Shown piece after piece: positions 15,140 to 60,834 of a stretch of 64,000 bases of DNA. Both the position numbers and the translations under genes were made by a program. The stretch is from positions 124,001 to 188,000 of the forward strand of contig JAOTXU010000001.1 in the NCBI GenBank assembly GCA_029862165.1, written 5' to 3'. The notes below the pieces were generated by a model. The model did no database searches. It was not told the origin of the DNA and was given only the letters and a program-made list of their open reading frames with translations. The stretch is from Gammaproteobacteria bacterium. GTDB taxonomy: Bacteria > Pseudomonadota > Gammaproteobacteria > Steroidobacterales > JABDKV01. The stretch's first letter is position 1. The number at the start of each line of letters is the position of its first letter.

Positions 15140-15417
15140 CGGATAATTATGACGGTTTTTTGCGTCTCCCTGACGAGCCCGGCTTTTGCCACGCCATGTC
15201 ATGTGGAACACACAGCGCGGCAAGAGTTCCGGAATCTTCCAATAATCAGGTACATGCGAGGCGTAAACCACGCTTTTTGGGTTCTGCTCAGGGCCCTCCG
15301 GGGGTCCGGATTGTTGTAAGCTAGTGCCTCCTAGCCGCAATCATGCTGAACCCTGATTGAATCCGGTCGTCTAACTTTTTGCCCGTGCAATCACCCAAAA
15401 CCGACGTGGTGACCCCA

Positions 15418-17034
15418 ATGTACAAATCTGCCCGCCTGAATGTCGTAATCCTGGCCGTGGCCTTGCCGTTAGTACTCAGTGCTTGTACGACCGGGGGTTC
15501 AATTGGCCGACCCGGTGGGGAAGGCGGGGAACAAGGTAGTACGCCGTCAACGTCAGGGGGTTCGTCCAGTCCTTCCTCAAATCCCGCCGGCACACCTAAT
15601 ACTTCAGACAGTGGCTCGAACCAACCCAGTCAAACCGGTTCGCAAAGCGGTGTTCCGGGCTCCAGCGACGGTTCGCGTAGCGGCCAACGGGATGGCACAC
15701 AAACAGACGGCGCGGAAGGAACGTCCGATGTTCGGGTTGCCACTGCTGACCAATCCCGTACAGGCAGCAGTTCGTCCGGTGCTTCGGAAAGTGACGTCGG
15801 TGGTGCGGAAGGTACGATCAGCGACGAACCTGAAGTTGGCGTCGCCGAAGCACTGGAAGGCGCCAATGCCGCAGTAGATGCTGCGGCCGAGGCTGTGAGC
15901 GAAGCTGAGGCAACAATCGCCCGGGCCCGTGAAATCGAATCGGACTCAGCGGGTAGCGGTGACGAGGATTCTTTTGATCCATGGATGAAACCGAGTGCTA
16001 GCGAAGAAAGCCCGACCGAGGAGTCTGGTGACGGTGGTAGTCAGGCCGCACAAAGCAGTGAGCCCGCATCGACCGGTGGCGATAACGACGAAGACGAAGA
16101 AAATTTCGATCCGTTTGCGAACTATGGCGATGAGACCAGCGCGTCCGGAAAGTCCGGTGGCAAGGCCTCCAGCGCTTCGCTGCAAATTGCAGATGATTCG
16201 GTCGCTGTTGCACGTGCAGCGCTCAATCGCGCACGCCGGGCGCTGATTACTGCTGCAGGTGCCAGTACTGGGGATACCGACGCCGATGCCGAAGCCGTGC
16301 AGCTTGCGGCTGCCCGTGCAGCGATGGAAGCTGCGGCAGAGGCCGTAATTGCCTCGGCTATTGCAGTCATGGCAGCGTCTGATGTATTTGACCCACAGGA
16401 CGTCGATCCAAATGATGCTGCAGCGGCTGAGGAAGCGCTGGCCGAGGGCATTGCCACGGTCGTGAGTGTAATGCAACGCGACATGCGCAATGCCGGTGAG
16501 GCACTGGAGGCCACCGGGGAATTGCTGGCGGCCGCGGGAGCGCTGATGGGCATGCTGGGGACAACCGATCAGAAGGACGACGGCGATGGCTCGGAGAGCG
16601 CCGAAGAACGGGTTGCCAACCTGGAGGCAGAACTGGATCGCTCGTTGACTGTTTTCGACGACCGCATGCAGGTTGAGGGCAGCACTGTCGCAACGGGCGT
16701 GAGTAGCGAGGATAGTGAACTTGCGGGCGTTACCGAAGGATCGGGTGTAACGGATCCGAGAGGCAATCCGAACGGCGGCGGCGGCGCGCGGCGTGAGAAT
16801 GTGGAATGGAATAATCCGCGCTATCAGCCACCTGCCAGTACCGCGAAAAACGATTCAGAATTTGAGGATCTGTCGGACGACACTGTTGGTCGGCCGCAGG
16901 ATGACGATATCGTGGCCAGACAGCTGCGGGAAGCGGCGATGGCAGAAAGCGATCCGGAGTTGCGTGAAGCACTTTGGCAGGAATACAGGAACTACAAAGA
17001 AAGCCTGGAAACCGGAGAGGCTGAAGCAAATTAA
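15418..17034 (+). CDS. Large low-complexity Ser/Gly/Ala-rich lipoprotein
   Basis: From the ATG at 15418 this gives 538 residues with a lipobox LSAC. After the lipid anchor comes about 130 residues of Ser, Gly, Thr, Pro and Gln with almost no hydrophobic residues, then Ala/Glu-rich helices (AAAEAVSEAEATIARAREIE, VAVARAALNRARRALITAAG, AARAAMEAAAEAVIAS), each separated by acidic linkers. The short acidic motif DEDSFDPWM recurs as DEENFDPFA. It looks like a long flexible tether plus helical modules, perhaps a spacer between outer membrane and periplasmic partners. No family is recognised. It overlaps the next lipoprotein gene by one base and starts the kinase/vWA cluster. Confidence 0.75.
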   Translation: MYKSARLNVVILAVALPLVLSACTTGGSIGRPGGEGGEQGSTPSTSGGSSSPSSNPAGTPNTSDSGSNQPSQTGSQSGVPGSSDGSRSGQRDGTQTDGAEGTSDVRVATADQSRTGSSSSGASESDVGGAEGTISDEPEVGVAEALEGANAAVDAAAEAVSEAEATIARAREIESDSAGSGDEDSFDPWMKPSASEESPTEESGDGGSQAAQSSEPASTGGDNDEDEENFDPFANYGDETSASGKSGGKASSASLQIADDSVAVARAALNRARRALITAAGASTGDTDADAEAVQLAAARAAMEAAAEAVIASAIAVMAASDVFDPQDVDPNDAAAAEEALAEGIATVVSVMQRDMRNAGEALEATGELLAAAGALMGMLGTTDQKDDGDGSESAEERVANLEAELDRSLTVFDDRMQVEGSTVATGVSSEDSELAGVTEGSGVTDPRGNPNGGGGARRENVEWNNPRYQPPASTAKNDSEFEDLSDDTVGRPQDDDIVARQLREAAMAESDPELREALWQEYRNYKESLETGEAEAN

Positions 17035-18248
17035 TGAACAAAACGTGGCTGATATTAGCACCCGTAATTCTACTTAGTGCTTGCGTTTCGAAGCAGGTGA
17101 TCACAATCAATGCCACGCCCGCGCTGGCGGCTGTGGCTGATGTTGCGGAAGACTTGCTGCTGGATGTTGGGATTACGGTATTCGACCCGAACGTGCCAGA
17201 AGATGTCGTCGAACAAAATGAGATGCAGCTCGTGGCTGGCGTGCGCAACGCGGAGGCGCGCTATATGCCATATGTCTTGCGGGATACTTTGCAAGACACA
17301 GGGCACTGGGGTGCGGTCCGGGTCGTGCCACGGGGATCGGAAACGGTCGATCTGATAGTCACGGCGCGCCTTATGACGTCGGACGGCGAAAGGCTATCGC
17401 TCGTTGCGCGAGCTTATGATTCCACCGGCCGAGTCTGGTTAGACGACGAAAAATATGCCGATGTCGCGGGCAAGCTGAATTATCGCGAAGACCTGACCAC
17501 ATCGCGACAGGATCCTTTTCAAGATCTCTATAACCAAATCGCAAACGATTTGCTCGAATTTCGAGAGGCGATGTCACCGAAAGACCTCAGCCGAGTTCGA
17601 CAGGTCTCACAAATAAAGTTTGCTGCCGATCTTTCGCCTGAAGCTTTTGGCGACTATCTGGTAGAAAATAACGGTCGGACTGCACTGCAGCGGCTGCCCG
17701 CGCTGGACGATCCCATGCTGTTACGCGCTGAGAAGATTCGCGAACGTGACTATGTGTTCATCGATACGCTGGATCAGCATTACGGCTCGTTTCACAATCA
17801 AGTCCGGCCTGCCTATAACGACTGGCGACGTTTCAACTATGAAGAAGTCGTACGGTTGCGTTATTTAGAACGCGAAATTCGGCGACGGACGATCACGGGT
17901 GCGGCCCTCATCGTTGGCGGTCTCGCGGTAAGTGCTAATTCAGATGACCCTTACACTGAGTACGGTGGTTTGGTCGCGACAGTAGGCGGGATCTATTCGA
18001 TTTATAATGGAATCAAGCTACGCCCAAAACTGTTGGTGCACGCTGAGACCATGCGCGAGCTTGGTGATTCTTTCGAGTTGGAAGTGCGTCCGGCGGTGCT
18101 GGAAGTGGAAGGCAAGACGATTACGCTAAGCGGCTCTGTCGATTCGCAATTTGAGCAATGGCGCGAACTGTTGCGGGAGATTTACGTTACCGAGACGGGA
18201 TTGCCGGACGTGAAAGCTGCAGATAAACCGGACTTGCCGGGCGGCTGA
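17034..18248 (+). CDS. Predicted lipoprotein, first partner of the kinase gene
   Basis: A 404-residue lipoprotein with signal peptide and lipobox LSAC at about residue 17. A conserved-looking N-terminal domain (residues 30-190) contains RYMPYVLRDTLQDTGHWGAV and LIVTARLMTSDGERL, and a Gly-rich hydrophobic stretch near residues 285-330 could insert in or lie on a membrane. The C-terminus is charged. I do not recognise it beyond a general likeness to proteins found next to ExbB/vWA clusters. It is coupled at both ends: TAATG with the upstream lipoprotein and ATGA with the downstream kinase, which argues for one complex. Confidence 0.7.
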   Translation: MNKTWLILAPVILLSACVSKQVITINATPALAAVADVAEDLLLDVGITVFDPNVPEDVVEQNEMQLVAGVRNAEARYMPYVLRDTLQDTGHWGAVRVVPRGSETVDLIVTARLMTSDGERLSLVARAYDSTGRVWLDDEKYADVAGKLNYREDLTTSRQDPFQDLYNQIANDLLEFREAMSPKDLSRVRQVSQIKFAADLSPEAFGDYLVENNGRTALQRLPALDDPMLLRAEKIRERDYVFIDTLDQHYGSFHNQVRPAYNDWRRFNYEEVVRLRYLEREIRRRTITGAALIVGGLAVSANSDDPYTEYGGLVATVGGIYSIYNGIKLRPKLLVHAETMRELGDSFELEVRPAVLEVEGKTITLSGSVDSQFEQWRELLREIYVTETGLPDVKAADKPDLPGG

Positions 18249-20353
18249 TGGAACGGTTGCGAGCGGGTTTACAGCTAGCCGGTCGTTACTCACTCGAAAA
18301 ACCTCTACGCAGTGGCGGTAACGCCGACTTATGGCGAGCGCTGGACGAGCAGACTGGCGTCTCTGTCGCACTGAAGTTCAGTCGCACAGGTTCCACTGCA
18401 ACGCTGACCACAGAATTCAAGAATTTACAACGCCTCTCCCACCCGGCCATAGTTGGGGCCCATCGGTTGGCGACACACGACGGCGTGCCTTTTATCGTGA
18501 TGGATCTGATTGATGGCCCCGAGCTGAGTCAGTACATGGGGGCCGACCACCGCCAGTGGTTGCCGATATTTCGGCCGGTAGTGGATGCGGTGGCCTATGC
18601 TCACAGCCGCGGTGTGGTGCATGGCGATCTAAAACCGGAGAACATGCTCGTCGCCGCCGACGGTAGTGTGCGTTTGATCGATTTTAGTGGCGGGCCCGGA
18701 CGCACCGTGGCCGACGACATTCGCGCCCTCGGCGCAGTACTGTGCGAGCTGGCAACGGGTCTGCCGGAGTTGGGGCAGAGCGCGAGAGTGCCACCGGCAC
18801 TGGCAGAACTGATTGTCGGGCTACGCGACGGTTCAGAGGAATTGCAGGGTGTGGTCAGCAGAATCGACGCGTTGTTAAATGACGATATGACATCTGATAA
18901 AACCGAACAATTCGAGCGCATCGCGCCAGTCGCGCGACGGGTGAGCGCCCCGACCGAACAACAGGTTGAGACGCAAAAGCGCACGTCGGCCGGGTGGTGG
19001 GTGGCCGGGGCGGTGCTGGTACTACTTGCCGTCGGCTCAACACTTCTCTTCCTGCCACGCTTCTTGGCGCAGTCCACAGCCGATATCGCGACCGCTACAG
19101 ATACAGTTGCAGAGGCGCAAGCGCGACTGGACAACCAGGCGGCAGTGGCCAACCAGGAACGCGCAGCGGTATATGAAAAATGGTTGTTGCTGGAGGCTAT
19201 GAATGTCTCAAGTTGGGCACAGCTACGCGCGCAGCGTGCATTGGAGTTGTTGCAGGAAGGCGAGCAGCTAATAAGCAAACTGGATCATTTGGCCGCGATA
19301 CGACTATTAGAAGAAAGCGACCAGCTCTTCGGTGCGCTGCTGGAACAATCAGCGGGAATTGCGGCGGACCATCGCGCGGCTGGTTGGCAGGCCTTTAACA
19401 GCGGTAACGGAGAAAAAGCGGGGGAGCACTTTCGTATCGTGTTGGCGATTGAGCCGAACGACGACGAGGTACGCGATGCGCTGTTACGCACAGGCTCTCT
19501 CGATCGGGTTACTGCATTAACCCGCCAGGCGCGCGAACGTGAAAGCGCCGGTGACCTGGACGGTGCACTGGCGGCAATGAACGATGCATATAGAATCGAT
19601 CCTGGCAATACAGACGTCGAGCGGGAAACACACCGCTTGAAGTCCACCCTGGCAGCAAGGGGGTTTCAAGCAACCATGTCGCAGGTGTATGCGGCACTTG
19701 CGTCGAAAAACTATCCTGCAGCCCGCAAGGCGCTCCAGCGCGCCAGCGGCTTACGTCCGGCCGCGCCGGAAGTGCGTGATGCACAAACCCAGCTCGAGCT
19801 GGCCGAACGCGACGTGATGATTACCAGTCTGTTGGCACGGGCAAACGAGGCAGAGACAGTACAGGACTGGGAAACAGCGATAGGACTGTATAGTGAACTG
19901 CTGGAAATCGATTCGGCGCTGGTATTGGCACAACAGGGTCGCGATCGCGCCCGGCGTCTGGCGTCACTGACTACTCGCACCGAAGCCTTGCTGGCGGCGC
20001 CGGAATTTTCAAAGGACGATGTGCGGCGTCGTGCTGAGACGCTGCTGCAACAAATCGACAGCGTCGAGGCGCACGCACCGGAACTACGATCGCTTGCAGT
20101 CAGGCTGGGTGAAGCCCTGAGTTTGTCCAGATTGCCAGTCAAAGTACGGTTTGAATCGGACAATCTCACGGAGATTCAGGTGTATCGTGTCGGGCGTCTC
20201 GGTTTGTTCGATACGCGTGAGATTGAATTGATGCCAGGGCAATACACCGTGGTTGGCACGCGTGCGGGTTATCGCGATGTCCGCGCCAAGTTGATCGTTG
20301 AGGCCGGCAAAGAGCCTACACCCATGATGATTCGTTGCGAGGAGCAGATTTGA
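18248..20353 (+). CDS. Membrane Ser/Thr protein kinase with periplasmic TPR-like tail
   Basis: A 701-residue protein with a short N-terminal kinase domain. VALKF carries the ATP-binding Lys (about residue 43), HGDLKPEN the catalytic loop with Gly in place of Arg of HRD (about 123), and DFSGGPG replaces DFG. The activation segment and C-lobe are much shortened (domain ends near residue 215), so substrate recognition must differ from standard kinases. One membrane helix follows at about 247-272, then TPR-like helices to about residue 620 and a beta-rich end (ELMPGQYTVVGTRAGYRDVR) like a PEGA motif. The gene overlaps its neighbours at both ends. Activity is probable but not certain given the altered motifs. 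Confidence 0.85.
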   Translation: MERLRAGLQLAGRYSLEKPLRSGGNADLWRALDEQTGVSVALKFSRTGSTATLTTEFKNLQRLSHPAIVGAHRLATHDGVPFIVMDLIDGPELSQYMGADHRQWLPIFRPVVDAVAYAHSRGVVHGDLKPENMLVAADGSVRLIDFSGGPGRTVADDIRALGAVLCELATGLPELGQSARVPPALAELIVGLRDGSEELQGVVSRIDALLNDDMTSDKTEQFERIAPVARRVSAPTEQQVETQKRTSAGWWVAGAVLVLLAVGSTLLFLPRFLAQSTADIATATDTVAEAQARLDNQAAVANQERAAVYEKWLLLEAMNVSSWAQLRAQRALELLQEGEQLISKLDHLAAIRLLEESDQLFGALLEQSAGIAADHRAAGWQAFNSGNGEKAGEHFRIVLAIEPNDDEVRDALLRTGSLDRVTALTRQARERESAGDLDGALAAMNDAYRIDPGNTDVERETHRLKSTLAARGFQATMSQVYAALASKNYPAARKALQRASGLRPAAPEVRDAQTQLELAERDVMITSLLARANEAETVQDWETAIGLYSELLEIDSALVLAQQGRDRARRLASLTTRTEALLAAPEFSKDDVRRRAETLLQQIDSVEAHAPELRSLAVRLGEALSLSRLPVKVRFESDNLTEIQVYRVGRLGLFDTREIELMPGQYTVVGTRAGYRDVRAKLIVEAGKEPTPMMIRCEEQI

Positions 20354-22746
20354 CCAAGTCCATCCATGTTCACGACGATCACGGCGAACGCATATTTCTT
20401 CCGGGAGATTTCCCACTGGAAATAGGCGGCGATGAAGCCGATGTGCGCATGATCGGTGTCAACGGCAAATCGCTTGCCCAGGTCGGGCTGGAGGCTGATA
20501 CGCCCTATTTGCATCCGGGGACCGAACCGGTGCGGGTAAACGGCACATTGAAGACCTCGGCCTGCTGGTTGAGCGATGGTGACATCATCACCTTTGGCGA
20601 TGGTCATGTGATTTACCGCCAGCGCGGCGAGCAGATGTTTGTGCATGCGCGTTCACGCGTGGCCAAGGCGACACCGCCTCCGGCGGACGCCGACGGCGAC
20701 GCGGCCCACGAGATCATTGAACCCATAGCCTTTCAGCCGAAGCGGGGCAACGTGATCTCGGTTCATCGAGGAACCAGAATCCTCCAGGTCGCGGTCATTG
20801 CAATATTTGCGCTACTCGCTGCAGCCACGTGGTTCATGTTCACGGCCCGTTCGGTCAACTTGATCATAGAACCCGAACCTCCACGTATCGCATTATCGGG
20901 CGCATTGCTTACACCCCGGGTTGGTGGCCGCTATCTCTTGCGACCCGGCACCTATCAGGTCAGGGCGGACTTGATGGGCTATCTACCGTTGGATTCTGAA
21001 ATCAAAGTTGGCGGCTCAAGCAATCAGCAGTTCGTCCTGCAGATGGAGAAACTTCCCGGTCTGATATCCGTTTCGGCAACTGATTTGCCGGGGGCAGAAG
21101 TGCTGATAGATGGTACACAGGTCGGGGTTACGCCGCTTACGGATTTTGCAGTTCCCGCGGGCCTGCATCGTCTGGTAGTGCGGGCAAAGAAACACTTGTC
21201 GCATGAACAAGAGATTGAAGTCGAGGGTTTACATGTACAGCAGTCGATTGCTGTATCGCTGCAACCGAATTGGGCGCCGGTCAGCTTTAGTAGCAAACCA
21301 CCGGGTGCGATCGTGGCCATCGATGGCGAAAGCGTTGGCGAGACGCCGCTTTCTGCGGAGGTCGAGGCCGGCGACCGTGAGCTGAAGATTTCGCTGGCTG
21401 GTTACAAGCAGAACTTGCAGTTGATCAGCATCAGCGCGGGTGTGCCGCTGACTGTGCCGGAGCAAACACTGGTCGAAGCCGACGGGAAGCTGATCGTTAA
21501 GACCAGTCCCGCAGACGTCAGTGTCACGGTTGATGGCCAGTTTCGTGGCCGTAGTCCACTGGAACTTAGTATCAGGCCGGGCAAGAAACATCGCGTCAGC
21601 TTTACAAAGCCCGGCTATGAATCGGCAAACCGCACTGTCGAGCTCACGCCCGATCAGCGCGCACCGCTGTCAGTAAGTCTGACGCCGATAGTCGGTTCGT
21701 TGCGTATTGTGACAAGCCCGGCGGATGCAGAACTGATCGTAGACGGTCGTTTGCGTGGGGCCGCAGACCAAGTGTTATCGCTCAACGTCCGGCCGCACAC
21801 GATCGAAATTCGTAAGGCCGGATACGCGTCGCACGTGGAAACGGTTACCCCAAGACGTGGTCTTGAACAGCGCATAACGGTCGTGCTCAAGACTGTTGCT
21901 GAGGCTGCATTAGCAGAGCTGCCAACGTCAATTCCGTCAGCCGCGGGATCGTTGCGGCTAATTCGTGGTGGCACGCTGCGGATGGGCTCAGTGCGGCGGG
22001 AACAGGGCAGGCGCAGCAATGAGGTACGGCGCGATGTTGAGTTGACTCGTGAGTTCTATATCGGAGAGACGGAAGTATCGAATGCTGCGTTTCGCGAGTT
22101 TCTGGCCACGCACAGCTCAGGTTTTGTGGGCGGCGTTAGTCTGGACGGAGACGATCAGCCAGTAGTACGGGTAAGCTGGCAACAGGCAGCACGATTCTGT
22201 AATTGGCTCAGCGATCGTGACGGTCTGGCCAATGCCTATGTTGACAGGGAAGGCCGCCTGGTAGCAGTACGACCGATGAACACAGGCTATCGTTTGCCGT
22301 CGGAAGCCGAATGGGCCTGGGTCGCACGTTTTGCTGCGAGTGCCCAGCCACGCAAGTTCATTTGGGGATCGGCGGTGCCACCACCGGCCGGTGCCGGTAA
22401 CTTCGCTGACCATGCGGCCGGAAGCCTGGTGGCGCAAAGACTGGACAATTACGACGATGCGCATTCGGTCACCGCGCCGGTGGGCAGTTTTCCGGCCAAC
22501 CCGCTGGGTTTGAGTGAACTGGCCGGCAATGTTACGGAGTGGACGCACGATTACTACGAAATCGCGGCGGTGGATCCTTTCCTGTCCCTGGTCGATCCAC
22601 TGGGCCCGGAATTTGGCGATCAGCACGTCATTCGCGGCGCCAGCTGGATGAAGGGTACGATTGGAGAACTACGCAGCGCTTTTCGCGATCATGGTGCTCA
22701 GGGGCGGCCGGATCTGGGTTTTCGCGTCGCACGTTACGCACGATGA
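20350..22746 (+). CDS. FHA-like / membrane helix / PEGA-repeat / SUMF1-like protein
   Basis: The start is a TTG at 20350, five bases after GAGGAG and overlapping the kinase stop (TTGA), giving 798 residues. Residues 1-100 look like a forkhead-associated fold (ADVRMIGVNG, LSDGDIITFGDGHVIY) but lack the Arg and Ser-x2-His that bind phosphothreonine. A membrane helix follows at about 147-167, then at least four PEGA repeats (AEVLIDGTQVGVTPL, AIVAIDGESVGETPL, VSVTVDGQFRGRSPL), and a C-terminal formylglycine-generating/SUMF1-like domain (about 535-798: RLPSEAEWAWVARF, GLSELAGNVTEWT, RGASWM...GFRVAR). The catalytic Cys pair of true formylglycine enzymes is not seen, so this part is probably a binding domain. 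Confidence 0.85.
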   Translation: MTKSIHVHDDHGERIFLPGDFPLEIGGDEADVRMIGVNGKSLAQVGLEADTPYLHPGTEPVRVNGTLKTSACWLSDGDIITFGDGHVIYRQRGEQMFVHARSRVAKATPPPADADGDAAHEIIEPIAFQPKRGNVISVHRGTRILQVAVIAIFALLAAATWFMFTARSVNLIIEPEPPRIALSGALLTPRVGGRYLLRPGTYQVRADLMGYLPLDSEIKVGGSSNQQFVLQMEKLPGLISVSATDLPGAEVLIDGTQVGVTPLTDFAVPAGLHRLVVRAKKHLSHEQEIEVEGLHVQQSIAVSLQPNWAPVSFSSKPPGAIVAIDGESVGETPLSAEVEAGDRELKISLAGYKQNLQLISISAGVPLTVPEQTLVEADGKLIVKTSPADVSVTVDGQFRGRSPLELSIRPGKKHRVSFTKPGYESANRTVELTPDQRAPLSVSLTPIVGSLRIVTSPADAELIVDGRLRGAADQVLSLNVRPHTIEIRKAGYASHVETVTPRRGLEQRITVVLKTVAEAALAELPTSIPSAAGSLRLIRGGTLRMGSVRREQGRRSNEVRRDVELTREFYIGETEVSNAAFREFLATHSSGFVGGVSLDGDDQPVVRVSWQQAARFCNWLSDRDGLANAYVDREGRLVAVRPMNTGYRLPSEAEWAWVARFAASAQPRKFIWGSAVPPPAGAGNFADHAAGSLVAQRLDNYDDAHSVTAPVGSFPANPLGLSELAGNVTEWTHDYYEIAAVDPFLSLVDPLGPEFGDQHVIRGASWMKGTIGELRSAFRDHGAQGRPDLGFRVARYAR

Positions 22747-22814: not shown

Positions 22815-22988
22815 ATGCGATCTATCGCTTTTTTGATTTTGACCGGCATGCTTACGATCGGTCTGTTGGCAACCGCCCAGGAAGACACCGCAACAGAGGC
22901 TGAGGAGCCTGAGGCCCGTCCGGGTAGTTTTGTGCCAAGTGAGGATGTGGAAGCCGACACCGCGGTCGCCTTCCCGACGGACATCTGA
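22815..22988 (+). CDS. 57-residue exported small protein
   Basis: This short gene has a strong ribosome site (GAGGAG at 22803-22808, six bases before the ATG). It encodes a signal-peptide-like start (MRSIAFLILTGMLTIGLLAT, then AQ) followed by an acidic mature part of about 35 residues ending in AVAFPTDI. The stop is one base before the start of the MotA/TolQ/ExbB-like gene, so it belongs to that operon. No family is recognised. An envelope accessory peptide of the stator-like complex is possible; this is inference from position only. Confidence 0.7.
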   Translation: MRSIAFLILTGMLTIGLLATAQEDTATEAEEPEARPGSFVPSEDVEADTAVAFPTDI

Positions 22989-22989
22989 G

Positions 22990-23808
22990 ATGGCAGCACT
23001 CGAAGGCATTAGACGCCACAATATCCCGTTCGAATTCCTGTTTCAGGTTTTCGCCCTCGTTATTTCCGTCATCGTCATACATGGAATGTATGTTTCTGTC
23101 GTCAGACCACGTGCGGCAGAAGTTCTTGCCGAGCAGCGAGCACAACTGGCCATAGACAGGGATTACGTACCAGAGCGATCAATTTACGTGCTTATTCGCG
23201 ATTTTGAACAGGAAACCTGTTTTATCCTGATGTTTTGGGCCATGGCGATCATGGGCTACAAAGCGGTGGAAGGCGTGAACGAGCGCAAGATGTTGCTGCG
23301 AGATTTGATACCGGTGAACGTTGGAATGAGCATACTGCCGGAAGACACTCGTCAGTTTTCCCGACCCGTGCAGGCATTGTCCGAGCAGGAACGAGACTAC
23401 CTGCTGCCAAAAGCACTACTGACCGCGCTGCATCGTTTTCGATCGACACGCAACATCCAGGACGTGTCAACGTCGGTACGCACAGTATGTGAATCGGCGT
23501 CCGAGCGGCTGGATTCCGAGTTATCCATGGTTCGCTACATCGCATGGGCAATTCCGTCAATTGGTTTTATAGGCACGGTGCGAGGTATCGGTGAAGCGCT
23601 CAGTCAGGCGCATCAGGCCGTGGAAGGAGACATATCAGGGGTCACTGAGAGTCTGGGTGTTGCCTTCAATTCAACATTCGTCGCCTTGTTATTGAGCATT
23701 GTTTTGATGTTTCTCTTGCATCAGCTCCAATTGCGTCAGGAGCGGTTAGTTCTGGAGGCACAAGATTATTGTGACGAGCGCCTGGTGCAACACTTACAGG
23801 TTCGATAG
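22990..23808 (+). CDS. MotA/TolQ/ExbB-family proton channel subunit
   Basis: A 272-residue membrane protein. Membrane helices are at about 14-38, 76-93, 183-201 and 224-246. The last two carry the family signature: IPSIGFIGTVRGIGEAL with Thr196, and GVAFNSTFVALLLSI with Thr229, the places of the conserved Thr residues in TolQ and ExbB that line the proton path. A cytoplasmic loop of about 90 residues lies between helices 2 and 3. Such subunits form a pentamer around two copies of an ExbD/TolR/MotB-type partner. No classical partner is adjacent, but two vWA proteins with a similar N-terminal Asp helix lie downstream. The ATG at 22990 is preferred over the upstream TTG at 22930, which lies inside the small gene. 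Confidence 0.88.
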   Translation: MAALEGIRRHNIPFEFLFQVFALVISVIVIHGMYVSVVRPRAAEVLAEQRAQLAIDRDYVPERSIYVLIRDFEQETCFILMFWAMAIMGYKAVEGVNERKMLLRDLIPVNVGMSILPEDTRQFSRPVQALSEQERDYLLPKALLTALHRFRSTRNIQDVSTSVRTVCESASERLDSELSMVRYIAWAIPSIGFIGTVRGIGEALSQAHQAVEGDISGVTESLGVAFNSTFVALLLSIVLMFLLHQLQLRQERLVLEAQDYCDERLVQHLQVR

Positions 23809-25182
23809 ATGAAAACGCTCGTATTAGAAGTCAACGATGCTGGTCTGCGGGCGCGCGACGAAAGTGGGGAATTAAGCGACAGCCCGGGCTGTGCACTGGT
23901 CGATGGATCGGTGATCGTCGGCGTTGAAGCACGTGCGCAGGCACGCTTACAACCCGGCCGCGTGTTTAGTGACTTTTGGGGCGATCTGAGTCTTGAGGCG
24001 TTGCCAGCTGGTGCCGTGGGAGCCGCAACATTCGCCGATCTGGCCTATCACCATCTAAAAAGCGTTTGGTCAGGGCTCGAAGACAAGTTTGGTCAAGTGA
24101 TACTGGCAATGCCCGGCAGTTACACACGCGAGCAACTCAGTCTATTACTGGGCATCGCACGTGAATGCGGAATTCCGGTTGCCGGCTTGGTTGATGTTGC
24201 CGTGGTCTCTGCTGAACGTCCGGCGCCAGGGCGACAGATGATGCACCTTGATCTGATGTCGCGCCGTGCGGTGTTGACGGAACTGGGCCAGGGAAAGCGG
24301 CTGCGACGTACACGGGTGTCGAGCATCGAAGACGCAGGTCTGGCGGATTTTTACGATGTCTGGGCTAATGTCATTGCTGACGCATTTGTTCGTAATACGC
24401 GTTTTGATCCGATGCACTCGGCGCAGTCTGAGCAACAACTATACGATCAGCTACCAGACTGGGTCAGTGAAATCAGTCACGCCGGGCGGGCAGAGTTGAG
24501 TTTGCAAAGTGGAAGTGGCGAATTGCCTTTGGTTGTGAGCTCGGAAACCCTGGCGGTTGCTGCACAACCGTTGTATCGGAAGATTACCCGCCACATCGCT
24601 GCATCGAGCCGACCGGGTGAGGCTCTGACGCTATTGGCTACCGACCGGCTGCATGCTTTCCCAGGTCTGCACGAGGCGCTGGCTGACAACTTGCCTCAGT
24701 GTGATGTGGTCGAGCTTGCGTCCGGTGCGGCGGCGCTAGGGGCGTTGCGACACCAGGACGAGATACTGTCGAGTGGTGAATCTGTGGCGTTTGTAACGAG
24801 CGTAAGCTGGCATCGTGCGGCACAGCCACTGTCACCACCACAGGACGAACGACCTGCGAGGACCGATTTGCCGACCCATGTGCTTTATCGGGGCAGGGGA
24901 TGGGTCATCGGCAGCGATCCCTTGCATCTCGGTTCTCACCCGCATGAGCGCGAGCACTCGATCGTTCTGACGGGTGATTTATCCGGTATCTCGCGGGATC
25001 ATTGTCAGATTGCTCAGCGTGATGGTGCAGTGATCATTGAGGACCACAGTCGCTATGGAACTTTCCTCAATGACCGGCGGATTGAGGGTGAGGCCCGGGC
25101 GCATTACGGTGATGTTTTGCGTTTGGGTGGATCAGAGCAGGTAGCGCAGCTCATTACTGTGTCGAAGAGCAATGGCGCGTAA
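23809..25182 (+). CDS. Hsp70/actin-fold-like protein with C-terminal FHA domain
   Basis: A 457-residue protein without membrane segments. The first 320 residues resemble an Hsp70 nucleotide-binding domain: VILAMPGSYTREQLSLLLGI and ECGIPVAGLVDVAVVSAER match the DnaK segment around IINEPTAA, and LASGAAALGAL matches the end region. The Gly-rich phosphate-binding loops are not conserved (HLDLMSRRAVLTELG where DnaK has DLGGGTFD), so ATP binding is doubtful. Residues about 375-450 are an FHA domain with ISRDHCQI and GTFLNDRRI, keeping the Ser-x2-His and Asn but with GS where the usual GR occurs. It likely reads phosphothreonine made by the kinases of this cluster. It overlaps the next gene by 11 bp. 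Confidence 0.8.
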   Translation: MKTLVLEVNDAGLRARDESGELSDSPGCALVDGSVIVGVEARAQARLQPGRVFSDFWGDLSLEALPAGAVGAATFADLAYHHLKSVWSGLEDKFGQVILAMPGSYTREQLSLLLGIARECGIPVAGLVDVAVVSAERPAPGRQMMHLDLMSRRAVLTELGQGKRLRRTRVSSIEDAGLADFYDVWANVIADAFVRNTRFDPMHSAQSEQQLYDQLPDWVSEISHAGRAELSLQSGSGELPLVVSSETLAVAAQPLYRKITRHIAASSRPGEALTLLATDRLHAFPGLHEALADNLPQCDVVELASGAAALGALRHQDEILSSGESVAFVTSVSWHRAAQPLSPPQDERPARTDLPTHVLYRGRGWVIGSDPLHLGSHPHEREHSIVLTGDLSGISRDHCQIAQRDGAVIIEDHSRYGTFLNDRRIEGEARAHYGDVLRLGGSEQVAQLITVSKSNGA

Positions 25183-26269
25183 ACAGCGACGATTCACCGT
25201 ATTTAGTCTGTCATTTTTGGACATCATGTCATGTGGTTTCGGCGCGACAGTTCTGGTGTTCATGCTGATCCATCACTCAACAGTAGAGCGCGCCGACGAA
25301 ATCAATAAAGAGTTACTAATCGAGGTGGACTCTCTAACCCGAGAAATCACGTCGACAGAGATCGCTATAAGCAATGCCAGCACCGAAATCGAAAAATCTG
25401 ACAACGCCCTGGTCCAGCTCAAAGCCCGTACTGCGCAGGCGACCGAAGAGTTAGCCAGGGCGCGAGACGAGCTTGCCAATCGGAACGAAATGACCATGGC
25501 GCAACGAGAACACCTGAGTAAGCTCATGGCAGATGTTCAGGCACTGGAGGAGCAGACCAAGCGTCTTGAAGGTGAAGTTGAGGAGCGTCGTCTCACAACT
25601 GCCGACGGTCTCAGTTTTGTCGGTGAGGGTGATCGTCAGTACCTCACAGGGTTGAAACTTGGTGGACGCCGCTTACTCATCATTCTGGATGCATCCGCAA
25701 GCATGCTCGACACGACCCTGGTCAATATTATTCGTACGCGTAATATGCCGCTGGAAAGAAAACTCCAAGCCGACAAATGGGTGCGTTCATTACGGACTGT
25801 CGAATGGATTTTGACCCGATTGCCTGAAACTACTGAATTTCAGGTTTTCATATTTAACGAAACGGCGCGTCCCCTTATCTCGGGGACCGAGAATGAGTGG
25901 TTTGCATCAGACGACCAGAAAGCAGTGGGCCGGGCAGCGGCTGCGCTGAGACTTGTCGACCCGGGCAAGGGGACCAGTCTGTATCAGGCGTTTAATGTCG
26001 TAGGCCAGTTAGACCCGATGCCCGACAATGTTGTTTTGATCACGGATGGCCTGCCCACGGTTGGGGACGCACCACCAAAACGCCGCACGATTTCATCGCG
26101 CAATCGAATACGCCTGTTCCAGCGCTCGCTGCAAGTGTTGCCATCGGGTATACCGGTGAACACTATTCTTTTTCCGATTGAAGGTGATCCGGCGGCCTCC
26201 AGTCAGTTCTGGCGCCTGGCGATGGCGACCGGTGGTTCGCTGATGAGTCCATCCCGGGACTGGCCGTGA
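25172..26269 (+). CDS. Membrane-anchored vWA protein 1 with ExbD-like N-terminal helix
   Basis: A 365-residue protein. Residues 11-33 form a single membrane helix opening with SLSFLD (Asp17) followed by IMSCGFGATVLVFMLI. This resembles the start of ExbD/TolR helices (PFIDVMLVLL type), where the Asp carries protons. A charged coiled coil spans about 40-140, then a vWA domain with the metal-site motif DASAS at 173-177, the Thr-containing GTSLYQAF and VVLITDGLPTVGD. The N-terminal tail is basic, so the vWA domain should lie in the periplasm. The gene overlaps the FHA gene by 11 bp and precedes a paralogue of the same layout. Confidence 0.85.
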   Translation: MARKQRRFTVFSLSFLDIMSCGFGATVLVFMLIHHSTVERADEINKELLIEVDSLTREITSTEIAISNASTEIEKSDNALVQLKARTAQATEELARARDELANRNEMTMAQREHLSKLMADVQALEEQTKRLEGEVEERRLTTADGLSFVGEGDRQYLTGLKLGGRRLLIILDASASMLDTTLVNIIRTRNMPLERKLQADKWVRSLRTVEWILTRLPETTEFQVFIFNETARPLISGTENEWFASDDQKAVGRAAAALRLVDPGKGTSLYQAFNVVGQLDPMPDNVVLITDGLPTVGDAPPKRRTISSRNRIRLFQRSLQVLPSGIPVNTILFPIEGDPAASSQFWRLAMATGGSLMSPSRDWP

Positions 26270-26282
26270 GTACGGTTAACTA

Positions 26283-27275
26283 ATGGTTAAGCGTCGCGAA
26301 ATGCAGCCTTTTGGTCTGTCCTTTTTGGACGCCATCGCTTGTGGATTTGGTGCGATCTTGCTTTTGCTGGTAATAACCAAGGTGACCCAGCCGATCGTGC
26401 TGCAACAGAGTACCGATGCGTTGCGAACGCAGGTCATTGAATTAGGTGAGCGCGTCGTAGCCTTACGCAGCCAGCTGCAGGTCGTGCAGACCGAGCGAGA
26501 GGATCGACGAGATCAGATTTCACGCCGAGAGGGGCAGCTCGCCAAATTGACCAACAGACTCGAGATGATGCGCGGGGAATTCAATGTATCTGACAAGGAC
26601 TCGACCGTCACCAATATTTTGGAGAAGCGTCTGGAGTTCGCACGTACGGAATTAACCCGTGACATTGATGAAATGATGGTTTATGACGCGGCTCCGACCA
26701 GCATCATCGGTGGCATCCCGGCTGACAGCGAGTACATAATTTTTGTCATCGATACATCGGGCAGCATGGTGCAGTTCGCGTGGCCACTAGTATTGAGCAA
26801 GGTAACCGAGACACTGGCAGTTTATCCTGACGTCAAGGGTATTCAGGTAATGAATGACAACGGGCAGTACATGTTTCCGCGTTATCGCGGACAATGGATT
26901 CCGGATTCGCGCGCACGACGCAAAGCGATAGTCAATACCTTGCGTACGTGGACGCCGTTCAGTAATTCCAGCCCGGTAGAAGGCATCACCCGCGCGATTT
27001 CGTCTTTCTATTCAGAGGACAAGAAAATCAGTATCTACGTTTTTGGTGACGAGTTTACTGGTGGTTCTATCCAACCGGTACTGGACGCGGTTGACAAGGT
27101 TAACCGGTTCGGATCGGACGGTAACCGGCTCGTGCGAATTCATGCGGTCGGTTTTCCTGTGATGCTGGAGCAGGATCCGCGTCTGCATGTTACTGGTGAA
27201 CGTTTTGCTACGCTCATGCGTCTGATGTGCGATGCACACGGCGGTACTTTTATCGGATTGAACAGAACACACTAG
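26283..27275 (+). CDS. Membrane-anchored vWA protein 2 with ExbD-like N-terminal helix
   Basis: A 330-residue paralogue of the upstream vWA protein in layout. The basic N-terminus is followed by GLSFLDAIACGFGAILLLLV (Asp16 in the SFLD motif), a coiled coil at about 45-110, and a vWA domain with DTSGS at 157-161 and a second-loop SSPVEGI. FGDEF follows near residue 257 in the place of the conserved Asp loop. Two such partners next to one MotA/TolQ/ExbB subunit suggest a heterodimer inside the channel ring, but this is inference. It begins 13 bp after gene 1 and ends overlapping a convergent glycosyltransferase gene by three bases. Confidence 0.85.
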   Translation: MVKRREMQPFGLSFLDAIACGFGAILLLLVITKVTQPIVLQQSTDALRTQVIELGERVVALRSQLQVVQTEREDRRDQISRREGQLAKLTNRLEMMRGEFNVSDKDSTVTNILEKRLEFARTELTRDIDEMMVYDAAPTSIIGGIPADSEYIIFVIDTSGSMVQFAWPLVLSKVTETLAVYPDVKGIQVMNDNGQYMFPRYRGQWIPDSRARRKAIVNTLRTWTPFSNSSPVEGITRAISSFYSEDKKISIYVFGDEFTGGSIQPVLDAVDKVNRFGSDGNRLVRIHAVGFPVMLEQDPRLHVTGERFATLMRLMCDAHGGTFIGLNRTH

Positions 27276-28515: not shown

Positions 28516-29823
28516 ATGGGAACCGGCTTGCTAAAACGCAGACAAAAATTAGGTAAATACCGGATTGAGAAACGGCTGGCCGTCACAAATTTCGCATCCG
28601 TCTACGAAGCCTACGACACGATTCTGGGAGTTCGCGTAGCGCTTAAGATTCCGCACAAACCACAGCTGGGCGAGAAATTCCCGGAGGAATTCAGAAAAGA
28701 AGGCAGGGTGGCGGCCAAGCTGGATCATCCGCATATCTTGCCGATCAAGGATGCGGGGATTATTGATGGTCACTTTGTTATCGTCAGCCCGCTGGGCGTT
28801 GGCACGCTGGCGGACCGCATAGGCTACCGGCTTGCTACGGACAAAATTCTGGATCTATGCGCACAGATGCTGGAAGCGGTAGCGCATGCGCACGGGTTGC
28901 GGGTAATTCACTGCGATATCAAGCCAGAGAATTTTATTCTCTTTCCGGATAACGAGCTGCGGTTGGCAGACTTTGGTATTGCAAAAATTGCATTGCGCAC
29001 CGTAAAGGCGTCGGGTTCGGGTACCTTGGGTTATCTGGCGCCGGAGCAGGCAATGGGCCGTCCTGGTTATCGCTCCGATGTGTTCTCGTTGGGATTGATA
29101 ATTTACCGGATGCTCGCCGGCAAGCTACCCGAGTGGCCATTCACATGGCCGGGACCCGGCTACGACAAACTGCGTCAGCGAGTGCCGGCCGAATTTGTTG
29201 CTTTTGTCAGGAAATCCGTCGATGTCACCCCGTCACGGCGGTTCGCCAACGCCGCCACGATGTTGGCTGAATTTGAGCGGATCTTGCCGCGCACACAGGC
29301 ATGGCTGCGAAAGTCGCGTCGGCGCCGTACGCGTGAGACCAACGGTCCGTCATGGCATGAGGTGCGATGGCGGCAATTCAGACGACGCTATGGAAAACAA
29401 CTCGAGACACGTTTCAACTGTCGCAAGTGTCACGGCCCAGTTGCTGAGTCGATGCAGGCTTGTCCCTGGTGTGGCTCGGCCGGCCGATTCCTGGACGGTC
29501 AAACGACGTTTCCGGCTGAGTGTCCGCGTTGTCAGCGTGGCAGCAAACTGGACTGGCACTATTGTCCGTGGTGCTACGGGCCGAAATTTGAAGACGCAAC
29601 TGAAAGAGAGTACGCCGACAAGCGTTATAGCGCACGCTGTGCCAACCCGCGGTGCGCACGCAAGCAACTAATGCCTCATATGCGTTATTGCCCCTGGTGT
29701 CGTACCAAGGTCAGGAAACGCTGGAAGCTGGCTGACGGCTCACCCTGTGATCGTTGCGGGAATGGTGTTCTGCCGGAATTCTGGGGATGGTGTCCCTGGT
29801 GTGCGGGTCATCTGGAGAGCTGA
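28516..29823 (+). CDS. Ser/Thr protein kinase with four C-terminal zinc ribbons
   Basis: A 435-residue soluble protein. The kinase domain (about 14-255) has VALKIPHK with the ATP-binding Lys, HCDIKPEN (catalytic loop, Cys in place of Arg), ADFGIAK and GTLGYLAPEQA, so it should be active; the Gly-rich loop is altered (LAVTNFASVYEAYD). A basic linker (RKSRRRRTRE) leads to four zinc-ribbon units of the same plan, each a Cys pair followed by CPWC: CRKC...CPWC, CPRC...CPWC, CANPRC...CPWC and CDRC...CPWC. I do not know a described kinase with this array. The PP2C gene follows seven bases later, so this kinase and phosphatase are a likely opposing pair. Confidence 0.88.
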   Translation: MGTGLLKRRQKLGKYRIEKRLAVTNFASVYEAYDTILGVRVALKIPHKPQLGEKFPEEFRKEGRVAAKLDHPHILPIKDAGIIDGHFVIVSPLGVGTLADRIGYRLATDKILDLCAQMLEAVAHAHGLRVIHCDIKPENFILFPDNELRLADFGIAKIALRTVKASGSGTLGYLAPEQAMGRPGYRSDVFSLGLIIYRMLAGKLPEWPFTWPGPGYDKLRQRVPAEFVAFVRKSVDVTPSRRFANAATMLAEFERILPRTQAWLRKSRRRRTRETNGPSWHEVRWRQFRRRYGKQLETRFNCRKCHGPVAESMQACPWCGSAGRFLDGQTTFPAECPRCQRGSKLDWHYCPWCYGPKFEDATEREYADKRYSARCANPRCARKQLMPHMRYCPWCRTKVRKRWKLADGSPCDRCGNGVLPEFWGWCPWCAGHLES

Positions 29824-29830
29824 CGCGCGC

Positions 29831-30649
29831 ATGCCAAATACGCTCAATCAACCGCTTATCGTTGCTGAATGTGTGGAGAGTGAACCCGTGCACGTGAGCG
29901 TCGCCGGTGGCGAAGCGGTAATTTGTTCCTTCCGGTCGCCCGACAAGGATAGTCCAAATGAAGATGCCGCGGTGATTGTGCCACTCAACAGTAAGACGGC
30001 GATATTGGCAGTCGCCGATGGCGTTGGGGGTTCGCGGATGGCGCACACTGCTTCGGCGGAGGCGGTAAAGGCACTGAGCCGGATTTACGAACAGGCAAAA
30101 AAAGGTGAGCCGCATTCGCGGGCGGCCATAGTCAACGCAATAGAGCGTGCGAATGAATCAGTACGCGACAGCGGTAACGGCGCAGCAACAACACTTGCTG
30201 TAGTCGAAATCGATGACTATTACGTGCGCCCCATCCATATTGGCGATTCTGCAGTACTGGTTTTGGGTCAACGTAGACGTGTGCGCATGCAAACCGTTGC
30301 CCATTCGCCCATTGGCTATGCCATAGAAGCTGGTGTAATGGATGAGGGAGAGGCAATGCATCACGAAGACCGTCATCTTGTTTCCAACGTCATTGGAGCT
30401 GACGATATGCGCATCGAGATCGGGCATCGCCTGCGGTTGGCCCGGCGCGATACTGTGGTTCTGGTAACCGATGGCGTGCTCGATAATCTTCATCTGGACG
30501 AACTGATTGATTTTGTCCGTGTCGGATCATTGGAAGTGGCGGCGGAACGCGTGATGACTGCGGTGCAACAACGTATGATCAAACCTGAGGACAATGCGCC
30601 CAGCAAACCAGACGATACAACCATGATTCTCTATCGACGCAGCCAGTAG
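29831..30649 (+). CDS. PP2C-family Ser/Thr protein phosphatase
   Basis: A 272-residue protein from the ATG at 29831. It shows the metal-binding PP2C motifs in order: SPNEDAAVIV (about 41), AVADGVGGSRMA (about 61-72), HIGDSAVLVL, VTDGVLDNL (about 216) and a C-terminal PDDTTMILYRR with the last Asp. It would reverse Thr phosphorylation made by the kinases nearby and thereby release FHA partners. The open frame upstream overlaps the kinase in another frame and is unlikely to be used. It ends the signalling cluster; the next gene begins an ABC transporter. Confidence 0.92.
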   Translation: MPNTLNQPLIVAECVESEPVHVSVAGGEAVICSFRSPDKDSPNEDAAVIVPLNSKTAILAVADGVGGSRMAHTASAEAVKALSRIYEQAKKGEPHSRAAIVNAIERANESVRDSGNGAATTLAVVEIDDYYVRPIHIGDSAVLVLGQRRRVRMQTVAHSPIGYAIEAGVMDEGEAMHHEDRHLVSNVIGADDMRIEIGHRLRLARRDTVVLVTDGVLDNLHLDELIDFVRVGSLEVAAERVMTAVQQRMIKPEDNAPSKPDDTTMILYRRSQ

Positions 30650-55135: not shown

Positions 55136-55305
55136 AGGGGCCTGGTATGCGGTCTTAGCTGAGAGGGCACATTACTATAGACAGGTCGCCGACATCCGGC
55201 CAATTTGACGGAATATGAAGCTTACAACGAGATCTGATACCGCGACGGCCTCTGGCTGGTGTGCTAGAGTTTTCAACCGGCTGGCGCTGTGCTGCAGTAA
55301 AATCA

Positions 55306-55971
55306 ATGTTGATGCCCCCTAAATTGACCCTTTTTGTTATCGTTGTGTCGGTGCTTTTGATGTCCGGCTGCGCTCCGACCGCTGGAGTTGTAGTTGATAA
55401 TGGCGTAACCGAGGTACCGGCGGTCGCCTCTGACGAATCGGCCGCCGAACCCGCACCGGCTCCGGGCGAACACTATCTAATCGGTCCTGGGGACCAACTG
55501 GAGATTTTTGTTTGGCGACACGCCGACGTGTCAGCTGCATTGCCGGTCCGGCCTGACGGTAAAATTTCCACTCCGCTGGTAGAAGACATGCAGGCGGCCG
55601 GCAAGACGCCCTCCGAGCTGGCTCGCGATGTCGAGGCGGTCCTGGCCGAATACATCAAGAGTCCCGTAGTCACAGTCATAGTGACAGGCTTCGTGGGTGA
55701 CTTGAGCGAACAGGTGCGTGTTGTAGGTCAGGCCATGCAACCCCGATCACTGAGTTACAGACAACATCTGACTTTGCTGGACGTCTTGATTGAGGTTGGC
55801 GGGCTGACCGATTTGGCGGCTGGCCGCCGCGCCAAAATCATTCGACGGCAGGGGGCTGAGATGATTGAGATCAATGTGCGGCCAGATATACTGCTGGACA
55901 AGGGCGACCTTCGGGCCAATGTGAAGATGATGCCCGGTGATGTTTTGATCATTCCGGAAGCCCGTTTCTAG
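55306..55971 (+). CDS. XrtA-system exopolysaccharide export lipoprotein (Wza/EpsE type)
   Basis: From the ATG at 55306 this gives 221 residues with lipobox MSGC. The polysaccharide export domain begins with YLIGPGDQLEIFVWRHADVS and VRPDGKISTPLVEDMQAAGK, followed by a SLBB-type domain (VVGQAMQPRSLSYRQHLTLL, VLIEVGGLTDLAAGRRAKII) and ends PGDVLIIPEARF. It is the outer-membrane or periplasmic part of the exporter, short as in the XrtA-linked subfamily. An earlier start at 55261 is possible but would add a non-signal leader. The intergenic region shared with the divergent PrsT paralogue should hold both promoters. Confidence 0.9.
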   Translation: MLMPPKLTLFVIVVSVLLMSGCAPTAGVVVDNGVTEVPAVASDESAAEPAPAPGEHYLIGPGDQLEIFVWRHADVSAALPVRPDGKISTPLVEDMQAAGKTPSELARDVEAVLAEYIKSPVVTVIVTGFVGDLSEQVRVVGQAMQPRSLSYRQHLTLLDVLIEVGGLTDLAAGRRAKIIRRQGAEMIEINVRPDILLDKGDLRANVKMMPGDVLIIPEARF

Positions 55972-56055
55972 CCAACATTCCCTCTTTATGACAAATCTGT
56001 GAACTGGGTCACTCTGGTGCCTCAAGGGAAACGGAGAACATCATGTTTGGGGGTG

Positions 56056-56061
56056 TATAAT
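56056..56061 (+). promoter_or_regulatory. Possible -10 box very close to the chain-length gene
   Basis: TATAAT, a perfect -10 hexamer, lies only 14 bases before the ATG at 56076. A transcript from it would have a leader of about 7-8 bases and no ribosome site. No good -35 is seen 17 bases upstream (GGAGAA). It may be a minor promoter, or chance. Confidence 0.35.
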
Positions 56062-56075
56062 TCAAACACTTAGCG

Positions 56076-57626: not shown

Positions 57627-58474
57627 GCATTGTCGAAAAGGCGGTAGACAAACACCGGAAGTTAGACAAGCTCACACCGATCAAGGATAAACGGGTGATA
57701 AACGACGCCCGCATCGGAGGCGGTCCCCATATCCCAACCGGTGCTGGGCAGGTCGATATCGAACTCAATCACGAGCAATTGGCCAAGGAAGGTCTTACGC
57801 CATACGGCGAGACTGCAGACAAAATAGTCGACGAATTTCGGCGTATTAAACGCCCGTTGTTAAGTGCTGCTTTTGAAGAGCATCAAGAGGGGGCAGAGCG
57901 CGAGAATCTTGTAATGATAGCAAGCGCACTGCCAGCCGAAGGTAAGACATTCACCGCCATGAATCTTGCAATGTGTATCGCGCTGGAGCGTGATCGCACT
58001 GTTCTACTAGTTGACGCCGATGTCGCAAAGCCACACGTCAGTCGCATACTCAACGTGCACAACGAACCTGGCCTGATGGACTTGCTGCAGGATCATACAA
58101 TCGACATCGGCGACGTGCTGCTGCAGACCGACATGCCGTCACTGAAGATTATCCCTGCCGGACAACGCCATCGTCACGCCGCCGAAATGTTATCGAGTCA
58201 GCGGATGGAGGCAATTGCCGAGGAATTGGCGACACGTTATTCCGATCGCATAATTCTTTTTGATACCTCCCCTATCCTGCAAACCAGCGAGGCTCAGTCG
58301 CTTGCAACACTGATGGGGCAGTTGGTACTGGTTGTGCACGCGGGCCAGACGCCACAACGCGCAGTAAACAGGACTTTGGAATTATTAGGAGACAGGAAAA
58401 TCGATATCGTTCTGAATAAGTGCCGTGCGCCTGCCAGTTCGCCATACTATGGGGGCTATTATGGGCAGAATTAG
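57623..58474 (+). CDS. XrtA-associated tyrosine autokinase (BY-kinase)
   Basis: A 283-residue cytoplasmic kinase of the bacterial tyrosine kinase family. Walker A is ALPAEGKTFTAMNLA (about 100-114), Walker A' LLVDADVAKPHVSR, and Walker B IILFDTSPIL. The C-terminus SPYYGGYYGQN is the tyrosine cluster that is autophosphorylated in such kinases. It acts on the chain-length protein encoded just upstream, by which it is translationally coupled. An extended N-terminal segment of about 90 residues precedes the P-loop domain, as in TIGR03018 members. Confidence 0.93.
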   Translation: MSIVEKAVDKHRKLDKLTPIKDKRVINDARIGGGPHIPTGAGQVDIELNHEQLAKEGLTPYGETADKIVDEFRRIKRPLLSAAFEEHQEGAERENLVMIASALPAEGKTFTAMNLAMCIALERDRTVLLVDADVAKPHVSRILNVHNEPGLMDLLQDHTIDIGDVLLQTDMPSLKIIPAGQRHRHAAEMLSSQRMEAIAEELATRYSDRIILFDTSPILQTSEAQSLATLMGQLVLVVHAGQTPQRAVNRTLELLGDRKIDIVLNKCRAPASSPYYGGYYGQN

Positions 58475-59858: not shown

Positions 59859-59859
59859 A

Positions 59860-60810: not shown

Positions 60811-60834
60811 GATTACATTTGGGTATTGTCTGCG

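Follow-up and report, generated by a model that had tools for sequence, protein, structure and literature searches.

In TolQR and ExbBD (PF01618 together with PF02472), a channel subunit with two threonines is combined with a partner that carries an aspartate in its membrane helix, followed by a periplasmic domain. A motor with another kind of partner was described in section 8 and Fig. 4c,d of a paper published in June 2025 (Mol Biol Evol; PMC12204202), which presents TPH-vWA/TolQ-like motors, that is, TolQ-linked heterologous vWA pairs with a TolR-like aspartate helix; the query came from Idiomarina loihiensis and the assembly, including the complex and the heterodimer, was modelled with AlphaFold 3 (AF3). 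In this work, we analysed a stretch of 64,000 nucleotides from a Gammaproteobacteria bacterium (contig JAOTXU010000001.1, positions 124,001 to 188,000; hereafter the window), where nine co-directional genes form an operon coding for two lipoproteins, a kinase, a protein with an FGE-sulfatase fold (SUMF), a small secreted protein, a MotA/TolQ/ExbB-family protein (hereafter the MotA protein), a forkhead-associated (FHA) protein and two vWA proteins, vWA1 and vWA2. The core of this operon very likely encodes an ion-driven inner-membrane motor of the 5:2 type, in which vWA1 and vWA2 replace ExbD, TolR or MotB and which is built into a larger envelope machine.

By every feature described in that paper's section on these motors (a TolQ-like gene with heterologous vWA pairs, no tolR or exbD, an aspartate helix, a ring of threonines, and occurrence in Proteobacteria and Verrucomicrobia), the system of the window corresponds to the same family, as judged from that description. 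The nearest relative that we compared, from Pseudoalteromonas (L174), is 55% identical to the window in the MotA protein, 40% in vWA1 and 47% in vWA2. The initial annotation of the window had proposed these proteins as a candidate new stator complex; since a motor of the same kind had already been published in PMC12204202, that reading was right but is not the first report. The terms kinase, forkhead, PEGA and sulfatase do not occur in the main text of the 2025 paper, taken apart from its figures and supplements, nor does that text describe a small secreted protein. The motor core had been predicted there, while the operon around it and the small secreted protein appear to be undescribed.

Several other motors share part of this design. 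Compared with TolQR/ExbBD, the partner in the window has a coiled coil and a vWA domain instead of the ExbD/TolR domain; moreover, there are two unlike partner genes, and no TolA/TonB-like gene is found in the operon. A single MotA homologue with two different MotB-like partners is also seen in AglRQS of Myxococcus (PMC9389320). GldKLMN/PorKLMN of type IX secretion likewise join a motor driven by the proton motive force to an FGE-fold protein, and SUMF matches the NCBIfam GldK model with an E-value of 1.7e-29 and 103 bits, below the cut-off of 350; the motor proteins of the window are nonetheless of the MotA/vWA kind and not GldL/GldM. Zorya ZorAB has a MotA-like A subunit and a B subunit with an aspartate helix, but PADLOC gave only weak ZorA matches in our case (best E 7.8e-5) and no ZorB. 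As for AglRQS, its operon is unlike that of the window, and we know of no vWA domain in AglQ or AglS.

The association between the MotA gene and the vWA genes was followed in two sets of loci. In 40 large loci from 15 families of the order, chosen without using any motif, the MotA gene and vWA1 lie in one operon in every case (40/40); vWA2 is absent from the operon in two loci of a single family (L066, L067), and on one chromosome of this family it is located elsewhere (L145). The second set came from a degenerate DNA pattern for the motif FLD-x3-CGFGA, scanned over genome contigs, which returned at least 119 stretches. The initial annotation had proposed to test whether such a motif always occurs beside an ExbB-like gene, and had named vWA genes that usually lack this neighbour as a refutation; in the 80 loci listed, this refutation did not come about. 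Every genome locus among them encodes vWA1 or vWA2 of the system found in the window, and the loci are spread over Gamma- and Alphaproteobacteria, Deltaproteobacteria/Desulfobacterota and Verrucomicrobiota. Among the loci listed, the MotA gene stands beside vWA1 in 45 of the 46 with at least 2.6 kb of upstream sequence, the exception having its MotA gene elsewhere, and vWA2 is paired with vWA1 in all 62 with 0.7 kb of downstream sequence. Altogether, the loci that depart from the MotA link (L114, L126, L145, L189) each belong to a genome with a MotA gene at another site. As a separate matter, the motif had four matches in viral contigs, which we rejected as due to chance.

Presence and absence of the two components also go together. 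The vWA1 gene was detected in 122 of 147 relatives, and all 20 genomes of the order without vWA1 also lack the MotA subfamily; among 12 genomes with a vWA1 match, mostly picked because the match was partial or weak, the MotA subfamily was present in 10. Across the phylum, 15 of 398 sampled genomes have the system, and 12 of these belong to one family of another class. No relative of vWA1 was found in plasmid records. In Gammaproteobacteria the core is stably accompanied by kinase, FHA and lipoprotein genes, whereas in two Verrucomicrobiota genomes the unit is reduced to MotA(-FHA)-vWA1-vWA2, with opposite-strand genes on either side. MotA(-FHA)-vWA1-vWA2 is a self-contained minimal set.

The N-termini of vWA1 and vWA2 have in common SLSFLD-x3-CGFGA (chance expectation in the window 0.00), with an aspartate at the head of the membrane helix, Asp17 in vWA1 and Asp16 in vWA2, as the initial annotation had pointed out. 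In the motif-free loci Asp17 is found in 41/41 sequences and Asp16 in 39/39, and the alignments show the two threonines of the MotA protein, T196 and T229, to be likewise invariant. A larger set covering several classes and phyla gave 163/163 for Asp17, 166/166 for Asp16, 146/146 for T196 and 147/147 for T229; since this set was partly retrieved through the motif, which fixes the aspartate in at least one paralogue per locus, the motif-free counts are the fair ones for the aspartates. The residues around the aspartates resemble the TolR/ExbD helices of the same genome (INVVPYIDVMLVLLIIFM and INITPMLDIVFIMLIFFI against SLSFLDIMSCGFGATVLVFML). In the larger set the metal-ion-dependent adhesion site (MIDAS) is conserved as well, with D157 in 166/166, S159 in 166/166 and S161 in 165/165 sequences of vWA2, and with D173 in 157/168, S175 in 168/168 and S177 in 164/168 sequences of vWA1.

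The MotA protein exceeds the curated cut-off of PF01618 (55.5 bits against 22.9), and the family and the two channel threonines given to it at the outset hold. Its AlphaFold2 model (predicted local distance difference test, pLDDT, 94.5) has long helices at residues 14-55, 72-102, 179-205 and 216-264. In Foldseek comparisons with PDB structures it matched TolQ and ExbB chains best, and PomA, MotA and ZorA less well (TMq up to 0.60, probabilities of 0.99-1.00). On this predicted fold, the MotA protein is a TolQ/ExbB-like channel. For vWA2, the model (pLDDT 78.8 on average, with lower values in the helix and the coiled coil) shows one helix at 14-33 and a long one at 41-132; its alpha/beta domain is predicted well and matches vWA domains (best E 1.4e-7 in Foldseek, with a protein that contains a vWA domain). 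The vWA2 protein is therefore modelled as a membrane helix, a coiled coil and a vWA fold. The coiled-coil stalk with a vWA domain that had been assigned to both proteins is supported in this way for vWA2, while vWA1 offers the MIDAS motif and a sub-threshold match to Pfam VWA_2 (E 0.0011). When PDB sequences were searched with profiles of the two vWA proteins, most matches were to coiled coils.

Gene linkage, co-occurrence, invariant residues and the folds of the MotA protein and vWA2 make the vWA motor mechanism well supported; the motif scan and the joint absence in 20/20 genomes speak in favour of the vWA proteins as the motor partners. The mechanism that we infer, with its stoichiometry, heterodimer, ion, direction of force, output and accessory roles, is as follows. 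Five copies of the MotA protein would enclose two vWA membrane helices, which most likely come from one copy each of vWA1 and vWA2. An ion, most likely a proton, would be carried by Asp17 and Asp16 past Thr196 and Thr229 of the channel, and its flow would rotate or shift the vWA pair relative to the MotA pentamer. The movement would then be passed through the coiled coils to the two MIDAS-bearing vWA domains in the periplasm, which may hold SUMF and its small partner, the lipoproteins, or peptidoglycan. In the lineage of the window, a membrane Ser/Thr kinase and the FHA protein would act on the cytoplasmic side, probably switching the motor on and off, and SUMF and the tiny P-x-(D/N)-I protein would take part in the periplasm; the lipoproteins would also belong to the machine.

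Some of our results speak against this motor. Pfam models of ExbD (PF02472) and MotB gave no match to the 45 N-terminal residues of vWA1 and vWA2 even at an E-value of 10, and the full-length proteins matched no ExbD/TolR or MotB profile in Pfam either; PADLOC likewise gave them no ExbD, MotB or ZorB signature. For the MotA model, the Foldseek E-values are modest, the best being 1.6e-3. Orphan vWA2 genes exist apart from the MotA/vWA1 operon (L114, L126, L145), in genomes that keep MotA; no MotA match was obtained in G553 at the threshold used, or in G052 and G074, where the matches to vWA1 are themselves weak. Finally, all the evidence is computational, and that given here comes from gene context, sequences and single-chain models.

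Instead of one heterodimeric motor, the operon might encode two alternative ones, in which MotA pentamers are combined either with vWA1 homodimers or with vWA2 homodimers. Each paralogue does have an invariant aspartate of its own, vWA2 lies away from the operon in some genomes, and an alternation of this sort has been discussed for AglR with AglQ or AglS (PMC9389320). Nevertheless, we regard this as unlikely, given the strict one-to-one tandem pairing among the loci listed (62/62), with short spacing, and given that vWA pairs are predominantly heterologous according to PMC12204202.

The kinase and FHA genes of the operon would also fit a gated signalling ion channel, opened when the vWA domains bind a ligand and read by the kinase and FHA protein as ion flow or movement, without mechanical work on the outer membrane; for Zorya motors, signal relay through ion flow and rotation has been proposed (PMC11890865). 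However, the motor core persists without the kinase and, in some branches, without the FHA gene, which is missing from four of the 40 motif-free loci (L057, L068-L070) and from L115. The length of the coiled coils and the presence of lipoproteins suit a machine that spans the envelope, and a channel devoted to signalling seems to us quite improbable. The locus without FHA in L057 (2260-10082 of G025:C9) is an additional, divergent operon copy; the genome carries the standard operon as well.

A third possibility is that the vWA proteins are force transducers similar to TolA or TonB, which bind laterally to a motor of the MotA/ExbD type, its ExbD being encoded elsewhere. A vWA family of this type is indeed described in PMC12204202, with an SHLS motif and tolR-like genes, but the helix of the proteins studied here has FLD-x3-CGFGA and an invariant aspartate in place of SHLS and its histidine. 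No ExbD, TolR or MotB gene was found in the operon. The genome holds seven ExbD matches and one MotB_plug match, all of them adjoining other MotA/ExbB genes, which agrees with the early remark that no ordinary partner gene lies nearby and leaves each ExbD with another ExbB. Together with the self-contained unit of Verrucomicrobiota, this makes the force-transducer reading highly unlikely. With regard to stator genes in general, we observed in L007 (G000 C37) an ExbB-type gene of 426 amino acids that adjoins a TonB-like gene; the stretch examined gave no match to ExbD.

Pilus proteins with vWA domains are known. That the vWA proteins are pilin-like or TadG-like, with the acidic residue at pilin position 5 and the MotA gene as a bystander, has next to no probability: an aspartate does stand at +5 after a possible cleavage site of vWA2 (G11), but the tie to MotA is near absolute. 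A prepilin would have Gly (or Ala) before its cleavage site, with Glu at +5; we rejected this reading in view of the invariable aspartate and of the -1 residue, in the larger set S in 107, N in 42 and G in 5 sequences of vWA1 and S in 116, N in 23 and G in 13 of vWA2.

Returning to the motor with paired vWA partners, a further component of its operon is the small secreted protein. A small open reading frame starts exactly at 22815, the position at which the interval of the initial annotation began, although neither this frame nor the upstream operon was mentioned there. A small gene with the P-x-(D/N)-I end follows directly after 103 of 106 distinct SUMF 3' ends, while the same pattern on the opposite strand, taken as a control, was found after none (0/106). 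In the encoded proteins a signal peptide, or else a membrane anchor, is joined to a linker that varies and is often acidic. Their end is conserved, with P at position -4, either D (96) or N (7) at position -2, and I at position -1. The search pattern fixed only these three positions, but others are conserved too: F/L at -5 (99/103), V/I/A at -7 (96/103), D/N at -10 (99/103) and I/V/L at -13 (98/103). All four proline, both aspartate and all three isoleucine codons, as well as all three stop codons, occur in the tails, and such use of synonymous codons and stops indicates that selection acts on the small peptide. The shortest forms, of 33-48 residues, amount to little beyond a bare hydrophobic segment and a tail of 15-20 residues; the one of L057 has 33 amino acids and ends in LPADI. 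The small protein has no match in Pfam.

Where the MotA gene has been displaced (L066, L259, L260), the small gene stays with SUMF, and in Verrucomicrobiota loci, in which SUMF is also absent, it was not found near the core; for these reasons, the small protein probably works with SUMF as its functional partner. The operon of L260 is itself rearranged, with the MotA gene after vWA2 and the small gene still between SUMF and FHA. The alignment of the SUMF family has one conserved cysteine column only, at position 622, and no conserved C-terminal catalytic cysteine pair, so the FGE-fold domain, judged from sequence, probably serves for binding and not as an enzyme. By eye, the N-terminus of SUMF looks like a degenerate FHA domain. 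More tentatively, and with doubt, the small protein may be a dedicated peptide ligand or tether of the motor, its C-terminus being held by the FGE-fold domain of SUMF or by the MIDAS of a vWA domain and coupling the kinase-controlled, ion-driven motor to the envelope. If so, the system would represent a novel type of envelope machine, coupled by a peptide and controlled by phosphorylation.

The features of the operon and of its downstream side are collected in Table 1, in which the three genes named by the initial annotation (MotA/TolQ/ExbB, vWA1 and vWA2) lie at the places that it had given for them.

Table 1. Features of the motor operon and of adjoining genes in the window
Feature	Coordinates	Strand	Basis
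Lipoprotein, 551 aa, low-complexity, weakly conserved	15379..17034	+	Sequence and comparison of order-level loci
Lipoprotein, 404 aa, conserved early operon gene	17034..18248	+	Lipobox LLSAC; conserved position
Membrane Ser/Thr kinase with C-terminal TPR-like part	18248..20353	+	PF00069, E 7.5e-19
SUMF: cytoplasmic part at the N-terminus, a single membrane helix, four PEGA domains and a domain of the FGE-sulfatase fold	20335..22746	+	PF08308, PF03781; hydropathy
Small secreted protein, 57 aa, MRSIAFLILTGMLTIGLLATAQ...FVPSEDVEADTAVAFPTDI, C-terminal P-x-(D/N)-I	22815..22988	+	Read from sequence
MotA/TolQ/ExbB-family channel subunit, 272 aa; channel threonines Thr196 and Thr229	22990..23808	+	PF01618, E 6.3e-15
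Protein with C-terminal FHA domain, probably cytoplasmic	23809..25182	+	PF00498, E 3.1e-12
vWA1: basic residues at the N-terminus, a membrane helix (Asp17 in SLSFLDIMSCGFGA), a stretch resembling a coiled coil, and a vWA domain whose MIDAS motif is DASAS	25172..26269	+	
vWA2: same plan as vWA1, Asp16 in GLSFLDAIACGFGA, MIDAS DTSGS	26283..27275	+	
Second Ser/Thr kinase with zinc ribbons, membership uncertain	28516..29823	+	PF00069, E 1.6e-32
PP2C-type phosphatase, possibly of the same regulation, membership uncertain	29747..30649	+	PF13672, E 1.3e-16

The second of the two lipoproteins has no Pfam match. The operon kinase has a membrane segment near residues 246-275 by hydropathy, and its gene is present in nearly all order-level loci; the second kinase and the PP2C phosphatase are found downstream in some relatives only (L041, L042, L045). 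The 350 N-terminal residues of the FHA protein have no Pfam match, and by eye they resemble an ATPase fold of the actin/Hsp70 type. Farther along the window (55261-63999), what looks by eye like a cluster for polysaccharide export and synthesis includes an export lipoprotein, a chain-length protein, a kinase-like ATPase, a deacetylase and a glycosyltransferase.

If the motor works as proposed, a 5:2 ion motor would directly move metal-dependent vWA domains of the adhesion type, in Verrucomicrobiota as well as in several pseudomonadotal classes. No phenotype has been reported so far for the vWA motor, and the conserved operon names its likely partners (the kinase, the FHA protein, the PEGA/FGE protein and the lipoproteins), through which the idea of a motor becomes testable. 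The small conserved protein, easily overlooked, adds a concrete molecule for experiments on the motor. The wide presence of the system in one gammaproteobacterial order suggests that it has an important function in the envelope of these bacteria.

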